Of a DNA stretch of 64,000 nt, positions 20,470 through 26,236 are shown piece by piece. The stretch spans positions 29,963-93,962 of the forward strand of contig NZ_AQOR01000014.1 in assembly GCF_009846755.1 (NCBI RefSeq), read 5' to 3'. The translations under genes were made by a program, and so were the position numbers. The stretch is from Alcanivorax sp. S71-1-4. GTDB lineage: Bacteria > Pseudomonadota > Gammaproteobacteria > Pseudomonadales > Alcanivoracaceae. Position 1 is the stretch's first letter. Each line of letters begins with the position of its first letter. A model generated the notes under the pieces. The model saw nothing but the letters and a program-made list of their open reading frames with translations, was not told where the DNA came from and ran no database searches.

Positions 20470-20841
20470 TCACTCGCTCGCATACCAATGATGATAAAAA
20501 TCATCTTCGGCCACTTCGCCTAGCGAAGGCGGCACTATTAGCTGATAGTCGTTTGAGAAACCCAGTACCAAACGCCCCTTGCTATACTCAACCGACGTCA
20601 GGCGCACTCGATCAAGCGGATTCAGGCAGACGCACCATACTTCAAACTCTGGAGTAGCTCCCGGATATTCACTTGAATCAGCCACACAGCCTGACAGACC
20701 GTGAAGCGTCCAGGGTGGGTCAATCCAGATGTACTCTTTCTTGCCAGCGAAGCGAAGTTTTATTGAGTTACATGCCAGTGTTCTTTCGCAGAGTCTACCG
20801 ACAAAACCGTTAATAATTCTTACATCTTTGTCGTGATCCAT
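20470..20841 (-). CDS. Hypothetical protein at the island edge
   Basis: A 123-residue soluble protein with AGGG five bases before its ATG. It contains three cysteines in the central part (SGCVAD; VWCVCLN) and an aromatic-rich C-terminal end, DDFYHHWYASE. I do not recognise the family. Codon use and base composition are more AT-rich than the core genes on its left, and it lies next to the repeat/transposase region, so it is probably the first gene of the accessory island. Confidence 0.6.
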   Translation of the reverse strand: MDHDKDVRIINGFVGRLCERTLACNSIKLRFAGKKEYIWIDPPWTLHGLSGCVADSSEYPGATPEFEVWCVCLNPLDRVRLTSVEYSKGRLVLGFSNDYQLIVPPSLGEVAEDDFYHHWYASE

Positions 20842-20888
20842 TTTTTCCCTGAAGTTAGTCCCCAGAAATCAGCCAACGAATTCAATTA

Positions 20889-20974
20889 GGTACACGCATG
20901 GATTCATGATATCAATTCCTGCTGGAATGACATCGCACAAACATCAACCTAAACCACCAGCTCGTGCGTGCCCG
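20889..20974 (+). repeat. GGGACACGCA-ended repeat, copy R1
   Basis: The copy begins GGTACACGCATGGATTCATG and ends CTCGTGCGTGCCC, giving inverted ends of about ten bases. Its middle (ATCAATTCCTGCTGGAATGA) is shared with R4. It overlaps the 3' end of the degenerate transposase at 20944. The family has five copies in this island, all in the same orientation. Confidence 0.85.
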
Positions 20975-21300
20975 TATTTTCCGACCGACAAAGCCTGCTG
21001 TGACTCCGCAGCATCTACCGCACCGCTCACCCAACGCTTCACCACCATCGGGCCACTAAAGAGCATCATCCAGCGTTCTGCCACCTCCAGACCAGTCCAG
21101 GAGGCAGCCTTGTCGCGGTTGATCCGCAACACCAGATGGTAATGATTGGACATCACTGCATAGCCACACAGATCAATGGCGAATACATCAACCAGCACCG
21201 CCAGACGATCCACCACCCACTGGCGGCGGTGTTCACAATTCTGCCCTGAATAGCAATCCTTGCCACAAAGAGAAACAATCGGGGACACGCATGGATTCAT
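20944..21300 (-). pseudogene. Degenerate REP-associated (IS200/Y1-like) transposase
   Basis: A frame of about 118 residues retains the family segments EHRRQWVVDRLAVLVDVFAI and CGYAVMSNHYHLVLRI, the latter holding the His-x-His metal-binding (HUH) motif of Y1 transposases. The usual N-terminal part is missing; instead the frame begins MNPCVSP, encoded by repeat R2, and soon joins SLCGKDCYSGQN. Its C-terminus runs through repeat R1 (GKYGHARAG). The downstream catalytic Tyr helix is not obvious. It is short for the family and bounded by the repeats, so it is a decayed mobile element, probably the source of the R repeats. Confidence 0.8.
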
Positions 21301-21365
21301 GACACAGCCCACCATGACATCACCTTAACATCCACATAGATTGCCAATTCATGCATATCTCGCAC
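21281..21365 (+). repeat. GGGACACGCA-ended repeat, copy R2
   Basis: It begins GGGGACACGCATGGATTCAT and carries the ACATCACCTTAACATCCACA middle shared with R3 and R5. Its right end (TTCATGCATATCTCGCAC) has diverged from the GTGCGTGTCCC end of the other copies. It supplies the N-terminal codons of the degenerate transposase and forms the downstream boundary of the HEPN-DUF262 pair. Confidence 0.8.
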
Positions 21366-21436
21366 TTACTACCGCCAGAAAATCATGCCAAATCCGCCTC
21401 TATTATTATAGAAAATACGCAAATTAATGTGCGCCA

Positions 21437-22078
21437 CTAGTTTTTCTTGTCTAGTTTACGAAACAAGTCATTTTGAAATACATCCGCCATAAGAAGCAGC
21501 ATCATCTGCGTAAATTGAATATGCTGCTGCAGATCAATCGAAGATAAATCTGGTTCATTACCATGAGCGACCCCATGCCTCCAGCCGACCAGCTCTTTAT
21601 CAATTTTTATTCTCCATCTCTGAAACGGTACAATCTCAAAACCGAGAATATTAAAATTGTGGGAGAGGGTTTCAAAGTTAAGATTTGATCTTGATCTAAT
21701 AGCCATATCGTCAAAACTACTGAAATTGCTATTGATGAGCAACTTCAGCCTATCAACGAACTCTCTTTCTGCAGACGGAGAATGGTTCCTATCCCTAAGA
21801 CGCTGCAAATCCGGCTTTAAAACACCTATCAATAAAGACCAAGATATATCACTAACCTTGCTATCAGAATCCCTCAGAGCTTCAATATATTTGTTTACAC
21901 ATTCGTTATAGAACCCTTCCCAATGTGCATAAGATAAGACAATCAGGGCCTTAGAGTTAATGCCATATTTTGCCACCCCATTGATTTCAGCCATTCTAAT
22001 TTTCAGTTCTGAGAGTTCACGAGCTCTCCTTAATCGCTCCGCATCGATCTTGTGTATAAAATTAGCTAGATTAGTCAT
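21437..22078 (-). CDS. HEPN-domain protein, MAE_28990/MAE_18760-like (putative RNase)
   Basis: A 213-residue helical protein. Early residues ALIVLSYAHWEGFYNECVNK and the C-terminal WRHGVAHGNEPDLSSID fit the MAE_28990/MAE_18760 HEPN family; RHGVAH supplies the R-x4-H motif of HEPN ribonucleases. Its start overlaps the end of the DUF262 gene by eight bases, so the pair is translationally coupled. In other genomes HEPN proteins next to DUF262 (ParB-like) partners are suspected toxin-antitoxin or phage-defence modules. Start ATG 22078 is chosen for this overlap. AT-rich composition marks it as acquired. Confidence 0.8.
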   Translation of the reverse strand: MTNLANFIHKIDAERLRRARELSELKIRMAEINGVAKYGINSKALIVLSYAHWEGFYNECVNKYIEALRDSDSKVSDISWSLLIGVLKPDLQRLRDRNHSPSAEREFVDRLKLLINSNFSSFDDMAIRSRSNLNFETLSHNFNILGFEIVPFQRWRIKIDKELVGWRHGVAHGNEPDLSSIDLQQHIQFTQMMLLLMADVFQNDLFRKLDKKN

Positions 22079-23174
22079 TTGGATTAAACCAGGCTTCTCC
22101 AAACGGTATAGTCCTCTGCAATCTAGTTGTGCCCCTGAGCCCTGACGCACTTAAATCGGCAACTTCCTTTTGCCTCCAAAAATCATCGATCCTAGATCCA
22201 ATAAACTCTCTAGGGTTCCCCATGCTAGAAATTGATTCTTTATTTCTTGCAATGCCTACCAAAATTGACTCTAGCCCTCGTAGAGAGAAGCGCTTTGCGA
22301 TTCCTGAATGAGCCTCGTCATGAGGAATTAGTGCGTTTCCCTGATACAAATCGTCGAGCATATTCAATGCCCAAGCGACCTTATCTATTTCAGGCTCTGG
22401 GTCGCCATCTACGATTACCTTTAAGATACTTCTATCTAAAAAATCTTGCACATCGAGCTCACCACTATAGTCTTCTGCTGTATGAACTATAGCTCGAACC
22501 AAATACTCCACATTCTTTTGCTTATACCTTTGTTCCTCAGTGACATTAAGGACCCTAATGAACCTTTCTGAATCTGCTATTTCCTTAATACGCCGAGTGG
22601 CGTCGGGATTACCAAGCACCATTGAACATGTACGGACTTCCTGCTCATTTGCGTACTCCCCTCCTCTATTTAACCTCTGAAACAAATCGAACTTTGTTTT
22701 GGGATCACTAGGATGCTTTAGTATTTGAAAATCCAAACGAGATCTACGAAAAAAAAGCTGTAGAGACTTATCCAACGCAGAGTTTGCATCCTTTCCAGAC
22801 CAACTTATTCCTTTAAGGGATTTTAGGTAAGTCGCAGAGTATAATATTGAAGAGGGAACTATTTTAGTTCGATCATCGGGATCTCTTAGTATCCCCATAA
22901 ACTCTAGTATGGTTGAAATCCTTTGCAATCCATCAATCAACTCCCACGTACCATCACTATTCTCAAAAGCGAAGGCAGGAGGAACTGGGATTCCTATTAG
23001 GATAGATTCTATAAATGCTGTCTTTTTCTCAATTCCCCAACGAAACAATCGTTGAAAATCAGGAATGATATCCAACTCCCCTTGGGAATACATTGATGCG
23101 ATCTCACCGATAGATATTTGAATATTATCTGTCGTAACAGATCTTTTGGCTTGTTCTAGCTCTTCTCTTAACAT
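22071..23174 (-). CDS. DUF262 domain protein (GmrSD N-terminal/ParB-like)
   Basis: A 367-residue protein with a DUF262 domain at residues ~15-215: ELDIIPDFQRLFRWGIEKKT, SILIGIPVPPAFAFEN and WELIDGLQRISTILEFM. The IDGLQR motif corresponds to the DGQQR nucleotide-binding/hydrolysis signature of ParB/Srx-fold enzymes such as the GmrS part of type IV restriction systems. The GmrD-like HNH domain is not visible in the remaining C-terminal half, so this is a DUF262-only form. AAGGTAGGG precedes ATG 23174. An in-frame upstream ATG lies in repeat R3 but lacks support. It is coupled to the HEPN gene downstream. Confidence 0.85.
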   Translation of the reverse strand: MLREELEQAKRSVTTDNIQISIGEIASMYSQGELDIIPDFQRLFRWGIEKKTAFIESILIGIPVPPAFAFENSDGTWELIDGLQRISTILEFMGILRDPDDRTKIVPSSILYSATYLKSLKGISWSGKDANSALDKSLQLFFRRSRLDFQILKHPSDPKTKFDLFQRLNRGGEYANEQEVRTCSMVLGNPDATRRIKEIADSERFIRVLNVTEEQRYKQKNVEYLVRAIVHTAEDYSGELDVQDFLDRSILKVIVDGDPEPEIDKVAWALNMLDDLYQGNALIPHDEAHSGIAKRFSLRGLESILVGIARNKESISSMGNPREFIGSRIDDFWRQKEVADLSASGLRGTTRLQRTIPFGEAWFNPND

Positions 23175-23202
23175 AACCCTACCTTGCTGGAAAAACCCTA
23201 TT

Positions 23203-23289
23203 GAGGACACGCATGAATTCATGATACTAACCTGCACCACTATGCCATTACATTAACATCCACATAGATCGGCAATTTGTGCGTGTCCC
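23203..23289 (+). repeat. GGGACACGCA-ended repeat, copy R3
   Basis: It runs from GAGGACACGCATGAATTCAT to TTTGTGCGTGTCCC and has the TTAACATCCACATAGATCGG middle shared with R2 and R5. It lies between the DUF262 start and the half attC site at 23291-23350, whose missing half appears to have been removed or displaced at this point. Confidence 0.85.
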
Positions 23290-23290
23290 A

Positions 23291-23350
23291 TGCTTGCTTC
23301 GTCGCAAACAGCGGCGCGTCAGCGTCCGCCATTGCTTTGCCTTGTTATAC
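23291..23350 (-). other. Half integron attC site (R''-L'' side)
   Basis: On the minus strand, seven bases after the GIY-YIG gene stop, the sequence reads GTATAACAAGGCAAAGCAAT, which has the R'' box and L'' region form of an attC site, like the complete site at 24775. The expected complementary L'-R' half is not present before repeat R3 begins. It is interpreted as a truncated attC. Confidence 0.6.
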
Positions 23351-23353
23351 GAA

Positions 23354-23770
23354 CTATACATCATCCAGGTATTTTCTCTGATTCAGGGGCCAATCGCCCA
23401 TACAGACGACCGACAATCCTGGACGTGAAATTCTGGAAGAACAACTTTGAATATTACCCCATGGTTGTACACGATGAATTAACAAGCTTTCGATATCGCA
23501 AAGCAGCTGGTGGGTTAACCTGCGATCGTTATCCAAAGCCACCTCACCGATTAACGCGCTATGCTCATAAATCCCACGCTGACGCTCTAGATCATCCCAG
23601 AATTCTGCTTTACCCGAACGACTCCATCGTTCTCGGACTGTGGCGCCCCAAGATTTTCCGATATACAAAATTTCGCGCTGACCCGGTGCCAGATAGGCAT
23701 AGAGGCAGCGGATCTGCCGCCAGCCTTCATGTCCCTCATCCAAATTCTGCCAATGGATATCTACTCTCAT
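23354..23770 (-). CDS. GIY-YIG-like nuclease, cassette gene
   Basis: A 138-residue protein with CLYAYLAPGQREILYIGKSW, resembling the paired GIY and YIG strands, followed by an Arg helix (VRERWSRSGKAEFWDDLERQ), and later ESLLIHRVQPWGNIQ where the metal-binding Glu and a conserved Asn are expected. ATG 23770 starts ten bases after the R' box of an attC site and the stop is seven bases before the next attC, exactly the layout of an integron gene cassette. Possible roles are DNA cleavage in defence or homing; none is demonstrable here. Confidence 0.7.
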   Translation of the reverse strand: MRVDIHWQNLDEGHEGWRQIRCLYAYLAPGQREILYIGKSWGATVRERWSRSGKAEFWDDLERQRGIYEHSALIGEVALDNDRRLTHQLLCDIESLLIHRVQPWGNIQSCSSRISRPGLSVVCMGDWPLNQRKYLDDV

Positions 23771-23779
23771 GCTCGACAC

Positions 23780-23866
23780 GTATAACGCCCGCCGCACGCG
23801 CGGCTTTGTAGTGGAGGCGAAGCCGCAACGAAAAAGCCGTCGCTGTACCTGCGATTTTTATGCATA
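23780..23866 (-). other. Integron attC-like recombination site B
   Basis: On the minus strand the site ends with GCCGCGCGTGCGGCGGGCGT then TATAC, an L'-R' arrangement. Its internal stem-loop (GCGGCTTCG...CAAAGCCGC) is nearly identical to that in site A at 24775-24858, so both belong to one family. The R'' side (ATGCATAAAAATCGCAGG) has drifted. A gene fragment stops immediately before it and the GIY-YIG gene starts immediately after it. Confidence 0.7.
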
Positions 23867-23867
23867 T

Positions 23868-23966
23868 CTATTCAGCCCCCAGCATATCTCGCAATTCATT
23901 TACATAACGCTGCCATTCCTCAACAATCTGCCTAGTAACGGTAGATTCAAACTCTGGACGAACCAA
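23868..23966 (-). pseudogene. 3' fragment of a cassette gene
   Basis: A 32-codon minus-strand frame ends with TAG at 23868 and reads VRPEFESTVTRQIVEEWQRY followed by VNELRDMLGAE. It has the look of a genuine charged C-terminal helix. Two bases upstream it meets repeat R4 and an in-frame stop follows, so the rest of the gene is missing here. Its stop abuts attC site B, as a cassette gene should. The possible 5' part is at 24714-24773. Confidence 0.6.
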
Positions 23967-23968
23967 TC

Positions 23969-24055
23969 GGGGACACGCATTGATTCATGACATCAATTCC
24001 TGCTGGAATGACATCACACAAACATCAACCTAAACCACCATTTCGTGCGTGTCCC
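23969..24055 (+). repeat. GGGACACGCA-ended repeat, copy R4
   Basis: It begins GGGGACACGCATTGATTCAT and ends TTCGTGCGTGTCCC, with the same middle as R1 (ATCAATTCCTGCTGGAATGA and ACATCAACCTAAACCACCA). It lies on the 3' side of the DUF2513 gene and truncates the gene fragment at 23868-23966. Confidence 0.87.
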
Positions 24056-24086
24056 GTATTTTGGTCCCCTGTCCCCTACTTTTTCT

Positions 24087-24464
24087 TTAGCCCCCAGCCG
24101 CGCCGCGAATCAGGGCCACCGAGATCTCGGATGCGACGGACTTGACCAAGTCAAACGTCATGTCGATGCCCTTTGAGGTGAATGTTTTCTTGGTCTTATT
24201 CCAGACAGTGTCAGACCGGATGGCGTCCAAGAGCTCGTGGCCCGGCCACGTGAGGCGTCTGGCGAAGAAGTGTGTAGGGCCATGGCCCAGCGTCCGCGAC
24301 ATCTGTCCCTCAATGAGACCAGCGCCAATGAGTAGCTCTACATGGTAGGAGTACTCGTAGGCGCGATCAGCAGGGAAGTCGGATAGGTGAAGCGTAGCAT
24401 CGGTATCCGGCAGTTCTTCCAAGCGTGTCAGGATTTCGCGGATTGTGTCCCAGTTGCGCTTCAT
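24087..24464 (-). CDS. DUF2513 family protein
   Basis: A 125-residue protein that opens with the DUF2513 signature MKRNWDTIREILTRLEEL and has YHVELLIGAGLIEG plus LTWPGHELLDAIRSDTVWNK, matching a small winged-helix-like fold common in phage and genomic islands. AAGGG lies five bases before ATG 24464. It is flanked by same-orientation repeats R4 and R5, and its upstream 113 bases are a near copy of the leader of the DUF5343 gene at 26072. Its function is unknown. Confidence 0.85.
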   Translation of the reverse strand: MKRNWDTIREILTRLEELPDTDATLHLSDFPADRAYEYSYHVELLIGAGLIEGQMSRTLGHGPTHFFARRLTWPGHELLDAIRSDTVWNKTKKTFTSKGIDMTFDLVKSVASEISVALIRGAAGG

Positions 24465-24480
24465 CTTTCCCTTAGGGTCT

Positions 24481-24593
24481 CAGAGATTAGAACGACGGAT
24501 CGTATATTGAATAACGACGAACGCCCCCCCTTCAATAATTTATGCATTCACAGAATAAGCCCCATCCATCAAGGACTTACAAATAAAGCAGAA
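24481..24593 (-). repeat. Shared leader sequence, copy DR1
   Basis: About 113 bases upstream of the DUF2513 gene align with 26118-26236 upstream of the DUF5343 gene. Conserved blocks include GTATATTGAATAACGACG, TCAATAATTTATGCATTCAC and ACTTACAAATAAAGCAGAA, with a short indel between the first two. It may hold the promoter of each unit. It is not recognisably an attC site. Confidence 0.85.
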
Positions 24594-24613
24594 GAAAAGC
24601 ATGAAACCGATTT

Positions 24614-24709
24614 GGGACATGCATGAATTTATGATGTCAACTTCCGCCGCCACGAAATCACCTTAACATTCACATAGATCGTCAATTCGCACCAATTCGT
24701 GCGTGTCCT
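24614..24709 (+). repeat. GGGACACGCA-ended repeat, copy R5
   Basis: It begins GGGACATGCATGAATTTATG and ends AATTCGTGCGTGTCC; the middle matches R2 and R3. It is the longest copy because of a small duplication near its right end (GTCAATTCGCACCAATTCGT). It interrupts the short cassette frame at 24714-24773. Confidence 0.85.
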
Positions 24710-24713
24710 ATAC

Positions 24714-24773
24714 TTACTCCTGACGGTCGTTATTTGAAACAATCGCAGAACCCACGTCATCTTCTGTTCTCAT
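24714..24773 (-). pseudogene. 5' fragment of a cassette gene
   Basis: On the minus strand an ATG one base after the R' box of attC site A opens MRTEDDVGSAIVSNNDRQE and then meets a TAA next to repeat R5. Position relative to attC A is that of a cassette gene start, and the 19-residue remnant is truncated by R5. It may be the N-terminal part of the gene whose C-terminal remnant is at 23868-23966. Confidence 0.5.
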
Positions 24774-24774
24774 G

Positions 24775-24858
24775 CCCTAACGCCGCCAACACGCGCGGCT
24801 TTGTAGTGGAGGCGAAGCCGCAATGAAAAATACGCCGCTGTGCTTGGCCTTGTTAGAG
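24775..24858 (-). other. Integron attC recombination site A (complete)
   Basis: On the minus strand the site reads CTCTAAC (R'')-AAG-GCCAAGCACAGCGGC (L''), a stem-loop with GCGGCTTCG/CAAAGCCGC, then GCCGCGCGTGTTGGC (L')-GGC-GTTAGGG (R'). L'' and L' pair over about 14 bases with one unpaired G in L'', the extrahelical base that directs strand choice in attC recombination. The total of 84 bases is normal. The stop codon of the preceding gene (24865) is six bases away. Confidence 0.82.
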
Positions 24859-24864
24859 ATCAGA

Positions 24865-25383
24865 TCACTTAAGAGATGCAAGAAAGACGATCTCCTGAAC
24901 TACTGTGCGTACATCTTGCATAACCCTGTCAATATCTCTTCTTTGTGCAATGAATCTTCGACTGTGCGCAGATTTGTCACCAATATCTTTTAATGCCTTA
25001 AGTGATGCCTTGGCATTTCTACCCAGATTCCAAGTTGGTTCAGTCAGCATTGCAGAAATTAGATCACTTAGATACACGAAGTCACCTGAGCTATTTTTTA
25101 TTTTTTCAGACAATCCCTTAGATTCAAAGCACTCAATAATCAACGTCTCTACAAGTCGTCTAGTAATGACTGCACATGCATCATACCAACCGTGCTCATA
25201 TGTGCCATTGATTTGGTGAGCGAGTTTTTCAATATACCCCCTCGTCCCACTGACTAAAGATAGATATACAACTGGCTGCTGCACACTATGCCCAGTGTCT
25301 TCTGGGGGTGGATTATTTTTCCTTAAAGCCTCATTTAGAGCTTTTACTTTTTCGAGGACTTCAGTCGTACTTTCGTTTAGCAT
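24865..25383 (-). CDS. HEPN/DUF4145-like protein, cassette gene
   Basis: A 172-residue helical protein with AVITRRLVETLIIECFESKG and ALKDIGDKSAHSRRFIAQRR. The latter resembles the DUF4145/HEPN pattern in which a conserved His follows a Gly-x-x-x-Ala turn. Such proteins accompany defence systems, often as possible RNases or adaptor domains. Its start overlaps the stop of the DUF5343 gene (TAATG), and its stop lies six bases before attC site A, so the two genes form a two-gene cassette. Confidence 0.7.
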   Translation of the reverse strand: MLNESTTEVLEKVKALNEALRKNNPPPEDTGHSVQQPVVYLSLVSGTRGYIEKLAHQINGTYEHGWYDACAVITRRLVETLIIECFESKGLSEKIKNSSGDFVYLSDLISAMLTEPTWNLGRNAKASLKALKDIGDKSAHSRRFIAQRRDIDRVMQDVRTVVQEIVFLASLK

Positions 25384-26072
25384 TACTGGTTAAAGTCCTT
25401 AAGATGCTTTGCCATTGATTCGAAGATCTTATCAATTTGCTCAGGCGAACTTTCAGGCGATATATGCACCTGCACATCGATATGTAACTTTGGGCTAAAG
25501 CCACGACCATTCGGGTCTGGATTACGAAGCTGTTGTTGTGGTGCTGGATCAACCGCTTTGGGATTGGAAGTCTTCGGTTTTGGATTGTCCTGTTTCTTAG
25601 CAGATTTTGTTCGCGGGCTGGACGCCTTTCCTAGATCTTTCGAAGGTTCTGGCTTTTTCTGGAGCAGCATTAGGTATGTCGCAGCATATTTTTTGGCCGC
25701 TGCCTCGCCGACTTTCGCATCTCTCATGAACCAGGTCGTTAAATTTCCGAGTTCTGCATCAGCGGTGTGATAGAGATCACGCAACTCTTGCGGGTAAATC
25801 GTATCGATTATGCTTTCGCAGACTCCCGGATATTTACTGTCATCGCGCCAATCATACGCGAGATCAGTGGGTTTTGAGTCGGCTCCTATTATCCCAAGCG
25901 CTTTTAGTGGGGAAACAACGTTTGATCTGGCTGATGCTTCAGCCATTGACATAGCACTCGCAACGTAAGACGAACTAATTTCCGCCGGAACCCTTTGCTT
26001 CAATTTGTCTCGCAGGCCGAACCAATTGGCCTGTGCGATCATGGGATACCCTTTCTTCTTATCCTCTGCCAT
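25383..26072 (-). CDS. DUF5343 family protein, cassette gene
   Basis: A 229-residue protein. The N-terminal ~150 residues (ANWFGLRDKLKQRVPAEISS; PLKALGIIGADSKPTDLAYD; FMRDAKVGEAAAKKYAATYL) match the DUF5343 pattern, a helical domain common in defence islands. A Lys/Pro-rich linker (~155-190) leads to a C-terminal LHIDVQVHISPESSPEQIDK segment that could pair with the adjacent HEPN-like protein. AAGGAG precedes ATG 26072. It is coupled to the downstream gene, and its upstream leader duplicates that of the DUF2513 gene. Confidence 0.75.
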   Translation of the reverse strand: MAEDKKKGYPMIAQANWFGLRDKLKQRVPAEISSSYVASAMSMAEASARSNVVSPLKALGIIGADSKPTDLAYDWRDDSKYPGVCESIIDTIYPQELRDLYHTADAELGNLTTWFMRDAKVGEAAAKKYAATYLMLLQKKPEPSKDLGKASSPRTKSAKKQDNPKPKTSNPKAVDPAPQQQLRNPDPNGRGFSPKLHIDVQVHISPESSPEQIDKIFESMAKHLKDFNQ

Positions 26073-26117: not shown

Positions 26118-26236
26118 CAGAGATTAGGACGACGGCTCGTATATTGAATAACGACGCACGCGGCCTATCTCCCCTCAATAATTTATGCATTCACAAAATA
26201 AGCCCCACCCATCAAAGGCTTACAAATAAAGCAGAA
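26118..26236 (-). repeat. Shared leader sequence, copy DR2
   Basis: About 119 bases near-identical to 24481-24593 (DR1), located 46 bases upstream of the DUF5343 start. Between this copy and the gene are two boxes reading GTTAGAG and GTTAGAC on the minus strand, similar to attC R' boxes, but no complete attC stem could be drawn. Confidence 0.85.

Follow-up and report, generated by a model that had tools for sequence, protein, structure and literature searches.

In an integron cassette array of Alcanivorax sp. S71-1-4, a DUF2513 cassette gene and a sequence that is, by similarity, a duplicate of the attI-type head of this array are enclosed between two direct repeats. This segment was probably spliced into the array by recombination between repeats, and the remnants on its two sides most likely belong to different cassettes, both truncated. 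The array is part of a stretch of 64,000 bp, which was analysed as a whole and is referred to as the window. A sequence-only reading of the window had described an order of attC A, a 19-codon 5' stub, repeat R5, a leader, the DUF2513 gene, repeat R4, a 3' stub and attC B. This anatomy can be read directly from the sequence, and matches to the repeat model place R4 and R5 in one orientation (both on the + strand), as had been stated. The further claim that the two stubs are the ends of one interrupted gene did not hold up.

Array layout and the two cassette stubs

The array runs on the - strand, on which all features given here lie unless the + strand is indicated. It starts with an attI-type head (leader 1, 26118-26236) without adjoining intI, followed by a first cassette (24865-26072) with two ORFs (25383-26072 and 24865-25383), for which only weak family matches were obtained. 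The ORF at 25383-26072 matches the candidate defence model PDC-M34A with 41 bits, and DUF5343 below the cut-off. The first cassette is followed by attC A (24778-24855; 82% identity to attC B), in which the R and L boxes pair. The ATG of the 5' stub (24773) is located one base after the GTTAGGG of attC A. This stub is the start of a cassette X (24719-24773), and its frame of 19 codons reads MRTEDDVGSAIVSNNDRQE, with the TAA stop codon already inside R5 (24608-24718, + strand; repeat model, 87.3 bits). R5 is followed by a second leader (leader 2, 24481-24593), by the DUF2513 cassette gene (24087-24464; 125 aa; PF10711, 89.7 bits with a cut-off of 29.6) and by R4 (23964-24065, + strand; repeat model, 97.3 bits). 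On the other side of R4, the 3' stub (23868-23958; 31 residues, VRPEFESTVTRQIVEEWQRYVNELRDMLGAE) ends with a stop codon at 23870-23868 before attC B (23783-23860), the R'' box of which is degenerate.

Beyond attC B, the array continues with a cassette gene that is GIY-YIG-like by eye and without library match (23354-23797). The attC after this gene appears to be cut by repeat R3 (23198-23300, + strand; repeat model), and no other half of it was seen by eye beyond R3. A GmrSD-type gene, a HEPN gene, R2 (21276-21370), a relic of a RAYT-type transposase gene (20983-21291) and R1 (20883-20983) follow in this order, both repeats being antisense to the cassettes. The GmrSD-type gene (PF03235; NsnA 156 bits, PD-T4-2_A 103 bits) adjoins the RiboL-PSP-HEPN gene at 21437-23240, and judged by these matches the pair is a defence-like cargo of the array. 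The RAYT relic is cut at both ends; it shows 63% identity over residues 23-124 of a 330-aa copy and also gave a DNA match.

The usual names are used for the attC boxes, and the recombination point of these sites lies between G and TT. In the predicted fold, attC A has the form of an attC bottom strand, its R boxes and its L boxes being paired, and the R boxes are unpaired in the fold of attC B. Since the fold energies of attC A and attC B are no better than those of many shuffled sequences (30 and 44 of 200, respectively), the identity of these sites rests on sequence and pairing pattern. A simple attC finder missed both sites, so no count was taken from it. No integrase gene was found beside the window array; the three matches in the genome are located on contigs C56, C59 and C5, with none on C6, the contig of the window array. 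The intI gene on C56 is intact, and relics are present at the ilvH locus. The gene names etf, ilvH, opdA and typA are presumptive names based on inspection of translations by eye.

The DUF2513 gene ends with GGCTAA and runs into sequence adjoining R4, and thus the attC of this cassette is missing. An attC, identified by eye, is present both after a DUF2513 paralogue in the ilvH array of the same genome (C59) and after a relative with 78% identity in Lysobacter sp. GX 14042.

The source of the 3' stub could be traced. Together with attC B (23783-23958, 176 bp), it is 94.3% identical to a sequence in a genome of another family (G363) and 86.4% identical to one in a genome of another genus (G039), the latter found in a DNA search of 46 genomes of the family. 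Both alignments stop at 23958, beside R4. In G039, the stub corresponds to the end of an intact cassette gene for an ATPase-like protein of 621 aa, of which G363 has a second intact copy. This family is broad, with 199 proteins at E ≤ 0.001 among 7,998 scored candidates. Against the 120 homologs listed, the highest score is 143 for the 3' stub (self 160; best of 200 shuffles 47) and 27 for the 5' stub (self 95; median of 500 shuffles 26).

The intact ATPase cassettes have a short leader between attC and ATG that is conserved between G039 and G363 (53/68 positions). This leader is unlike the 5' stub: of 1000 shuffled stubs, 979 and 748 reached or exceeded the score of the real one. Because both the N-terminus and the 5' leader of the ATPase cassette are unlike the 5' stub, the stubs most likely derive from two cassettes, and the flanks of the segment are most likely the start of one truncated cassette and the end of another. 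A search with the joined stubs, with X between them, found no protein. For the 72-bp region of the 5' stub, no convincing relative was found in 390 genomes of the order; 141 had some match at E ≤ 1, and the best match outside the own genome had an E value of 0.006. The ATPase gene was detected in 2 of the 390 order genomes at E 1e-20, and the own genome is not one of these two. A search of 369 genomes of the class at E 1e-100, run without a positive control, found none, plasmids contained only distant relatives with less than 60% identity, and neither DUF2513 nor the ATPase had a match in PADLOC.

The attI-type heads and a probable second unit

Leader 1 contains a block of 41 bp that recurs at other loci and ends with ...CCTAATNNCTG|TTA, after which the sequences diverge. 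The block is found beside the intact IntI gene on C56, beside the intI relic at ilvH, at the opdA locus and at the etf locus, the latter in the window and in the related genome G035. Allowing up to three mismatches, the pattern occurs at 30 places in six of seven genomes of the genus, eight of them in the own genome, and at none in the other 39 genomes of the family; a reversed control pattern gave 0. The places lie on C2, C6, C53, C56 and C59 of the own genome and in G033-G037, and those examined are array heads. One intact IntI was confirmed, which is encoded in the own genome. As the block heads the window array and adjoins an intact intI elsewhere, an attI site at the array head, as expected for an integron, is indicated by similarity. 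At the etf locus, the own genome and G035 have the same neighboring genes with different cassettes between them. The etf array of G035 (L038, 6340-14034) contains, by eye, genes for a 527-aa reverse transcriptase-like and a 794-aa helicase-like protein and an IS66-like element.

Leader 2 agrees with leader 1 at 103 of 113 aligned positions, with one gap of 6 bp. The similarity to the head of the own locus extends over the full length of 113 bp, whereas heads of other loci share little outside the core. By this similarity, leader 2 is regarded as a duplicate of the attI-type head of this array. In an alignment of 12 sites, it ends at the same G as the others and continues with AGACCC, whereas the other sites have TT first; this end fits a GTTAGAC sequence from which the TT has apparently been lost. 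The leader of G035 matches leader 1 at 91 of 104 and leader 2 at 86 of 98 positions, while the etf genes of both genomes are 98% identical (1714/1745). These identities suggest that the copy is not very recent. The head sequence of the array is probably its site of gene entry. Promoter prediction gave no site for either leader on the strand of the cassettes, and a copied promoter is therefore not claimed. A simple tandem duplication would not explain this arrangement, since leader 1 has no repeat on its upstream side.

The ilvH array holds a probable second unit of the same build that spans a contig gap. Contig C53 starts inside a repeat, which is followed by an attI copy (94% identity over 82 bp with the attI at ilvH in G035), a gene for a 131-aa protein that ends in CTAAC, a further repeat and, further on, a RAYT gene encoding 330 aa. 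The two repeats lie on the same strand and are 93% identical over 60 bp. The end of contig C59 lies inside the same type of repeat (46 bp, 96%). The ilvH array of G035 is matched on its left flank by C59 and on its right flank by C53, with the pieces nearest to the array in a different order. From this correspondence across the gap, C59 and C53 most likely frame one array.

The repeats and the RAYT-type transposase

The repeats were searched with a model built from 11 copies, which has a consensus of 105 positions; each genome had between 464 and 878 candidates, of which 150 were scored. In the own genome (150 of 823 candidates scored), 12 matches were obtained, namely five on C6, four on C2, two on C53, which overlap on both strands, and a weak one on C56. 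Five copies lie within 3.8 kb of the window array and seven further matches elsewhere in the genome, which makes the arrangement more than chance. Eleven of the 12 matches belong to the three integron loci on C6, C2 and C53, and the weak match on C56 lies near an attI-type block. The repeats are antisense to the cassettes or the attI block on C6 (5), C2 (4) and C56 (1), and C53 is ambiguous in this respect. In G035, 19 matches at 15 places were found, not all with a demonstrated array context (the repeat at 3808695 is one without). No repeats were present among the 150 candidates scored for each of the other five genomes of the genus.

In the window, R1 and R2 abut the doubly cut RAYT relic, R3 the cut attC, and R5 follows after 55 bp of cassette X. 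R4 is located between the cut ATPase gene and the DUF2513 side with its lost attC. R4 and R5 are 70% identical (64/92), and R4 shares 89% identity with R1. R2 switches its nearest partner from R4 on the left (88%) to R3 and R5 on the right (80%), each over only 32-35 positions; there is no clear chimeric repeat among the copies, and the switch in R2 is no more than suggestive. The consensus forms a terminal stem of 11 pairs, and R5 and R4 fold in this way, although 43 and 16 of 200 shuffled sequences, respectively, fold as well. A conserved GTAG-type tag was not found in the 11 aligned copies. At the end of the array, a gene for a 123-aa protein (window 20470-20983; L038 14081-14595) is identical between the own genome and G035 at 367 of 372 positions. 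The repeat beside it, with 75 of 99 identical positions, is changing much faster than its neighbor.

The repeats go together with a gene for a RAYT-type transposase. Among the seven genomes of the genus, intact RAYT genes are present only in the own genome and in G035, which are the two with repeats; G033 has one relic and the remaining four genomes have none. By eye, the ends of the repeats resemble sequence beside the RAYT genes. The name RAYT-type is based on a match to NF047646 (E 4.8e-12) with 46 bits, below the cut-off of 80, and the protein has no Pfam match and no sequence relative in the PDB. Other RAYT matches, on C12, on C28 and at some positions in G035, have no demonstrated array context. 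In the opdA array (L043, 3550-5510), a full-length RAYT gene has repeated half-elements before it and, by eye, a ParD/ParE-like pair after it; a similar order is seen in L039 of G035.

Origin of the segment and comparison with known systems

Recombination between repeats, as the simplest course, probably produced the segment in the following way. Repeat elements would have inserted into the arrays, with the RAYT-type transposase as the probable agent of their spread. An exchange between two repeats would then have removed the intervening DNA and left a joint consisting of the start of cassette X, a repeat and the end of the ATPase gene. A molecule with one repeat, the attI-type head and the DUF2513 cassette, which would stem from the same locus, e.g., of a sister or allelic chromosome, may have recombined into this joint, so that a repeat came to lie on each side. 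This reading is favored by the order of the parts, by the end of homology beside R4, by the origin of the 3' stub, by a copy of the head that is specific to the locus, by the probable second unit and by the joint occurrence of repeats and RAYT genes across the seven genomes. With only 70%, R4 and R5 have a low identity, which argues against a recent homologous exchange. Further points against it are that no clear chimeric repeat is seen, that the second unit spans a contig gap beside which the order of shared pieces differs in G035, and that some RAYT matches have no demonstrated array context. Neither a donor nor the joint before insertion was found in the 46 family genomes, and a search for uninterrupted relatives, as the sequence-only reading had suggested, returned the own genome as the only match to the full query of 1,081 bp; up to nine candidates were scored per genome in these searches. 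Sixteen plasmid records match the query, mostly at the attC ends and none over 80% of it. The best reading is that array segments were reshuffled by recombination at repeats, which resembles MITE-bracketed integron units.

It is rather unlikely that R5, leader 2, the DUF2513 gene and R4 moved as a whole, as a composite single-strand transposon that was cut and joined by the RAYT protein, with the flanks truncated before or after. Repeats in the same orientation do bracket the cargo and RAYT genes do sit in arrays. In addition, IS608-type elements use single-stranded DNA at the replication fork, as stated in the available part of the source (PMC6006769), and an orientation bias as for such elements is seen in G035, where 14 of 15 repeat places share one orientation relative to the fork, the exception being a weak repeat at 3684242. 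All eight RAYT matches on C1 of G035 have the same fork orientation, where dnaA at C1:39 is used to mark the origin and the terminus is assumed to be opposite. However, all five attI blocks on C1 are co-directional as well, so the bias is confounded and cannot be credited to the repeat alone. A composite transposon is also at odds with the low identity of R4 and R5 and the closer relation of R4 to R1, with flanks that are not two halves of one target, and with a head that matches the own locus, so that the cargo did not come from another locus. Of the interrupting mobile unit proposed before, the order repeat-cargo-repeat within the array and the common orientation of the repeats stand, but the flanks are most likely not one split gene. 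Similarly, a gene does lie between the repeats as had been claimed for a passenger gene, but the cargo also begins with the copy of the attI-type head.

Still less probable is a fusion of two arrays by the integrase, between the attI of one and a site of the other, which would have brought in leader 2 and the DUF2513 gene together; the repeats would have arrived independently and worn away the joints. The genome does encode an intact IntI at another place, and the transition from leader 2 to DUF2513 resembles an ordinary joint of attI and cassette save for the missing TT. However, leader 2 is preceded by R5, at a distance of 14 bp, and not by an attC, and the probable unit on C53 is likewise flanked by repeats on both sides. 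The splitting of a single cassette gene by a mobile repeat-cargo-repeat unit is very improbable: both stubs have positions typical for cassettes, beside attC A and attC B, but the gene of the 3' stub has a different N-terminus and 5' leader that are conserved between two genera. In addition, about 590 codons of this gene are lacking at the stub, and a search of the own genome at E up to 1e-20 did not find them elsewhere.

Changes in cassette arrays are generally attributed for the most part to the integrase. With recombination between repeats as the preferred reading, an array without integrase appears to have been reshuffled at short repeats, and the attI-type site itself appears to have been copied within the array, which most likely happened in a second array of the genome, too. 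Should such attI copies be functional, a single integrase could supply several loci as well as several points within one array. The more general proposal that RAYT-type repeats serve as joints at which the attI head and the first cassette are copied deeper into an array, creating several entry sites for a distant integrase acting in trans, is put forward as a speculative and, on balance, doubtful extension.

In the open-licence literature, no report of RAYT-type repeats bracketing integron parts or an attI copy was found. Bracketing of integrons by miniature elements as such is already known from integron mobilization units (IMUs) and from Acinetobacter MITEs, as far as described in the available parts of the respective sources. 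REP/REPIN elements with their RAYT (TnpAREP) resemble the repeats described here in being short, in having ends that in the window repeats are putatively inverted, and in being linked to a gene for a single-strand HUH-type transposase (PMC8266576, in part). Typical REPs number hundreds according to the same excerpt, in contrast to the 12 matches in the own genome, and the consensus of the window repeat differs from REPs by having no GTAG tag. Group IIC-attC introns and an IS200/605 element beside an array without integrase are similar in that they are inserted opposite to the cassettes and near attC (PMC7923331). The authors speculated on a role of IS200/605 elements in moving such arrays; the accessible portion of that paper describes no attI copy that is bracketed. 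In Acinetobacter, MITEs flank class 1 integrons (PMC10969869, from a partial text), so that a miniature element lies on each side of an integron segment as in the window. In that case, however, identical MITEs flank whole mobile class 1 integrons, whereas in the window an attI copy and one cassette are flanked inside a larger array.

Similarity is also seen to IMUs and other Tn3-derived miniature-element composites (TIME-COMPs), which have a copy of a miniature element at either end of an integron segment or a gene (PMC13367494, as far as available). For directly repeated MITESen1 copies, integration of a circle by homologous recombination into a resident single copy has been proposed in this source, which is the same step as the one proposed for the window unit. 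IMUs and TIME-COMPs have Tn3-type ends and usually target duplications of 5-6 bp and, within the part consulted, were studied with resistance genes on plasmids. In contrast, the window unit has RAYT-associated repeats and is located in a chromosomal array. Of the features that define these composites, bracketing by two copies of the same family is found (R5 and R4), and near-identity of the copies is not (64/92). Since some of the features tested differ from those of IMUs, TIME-COMPs and REPs, the unit is not filed as a member of these groups, although it would work like IMU-type composites.
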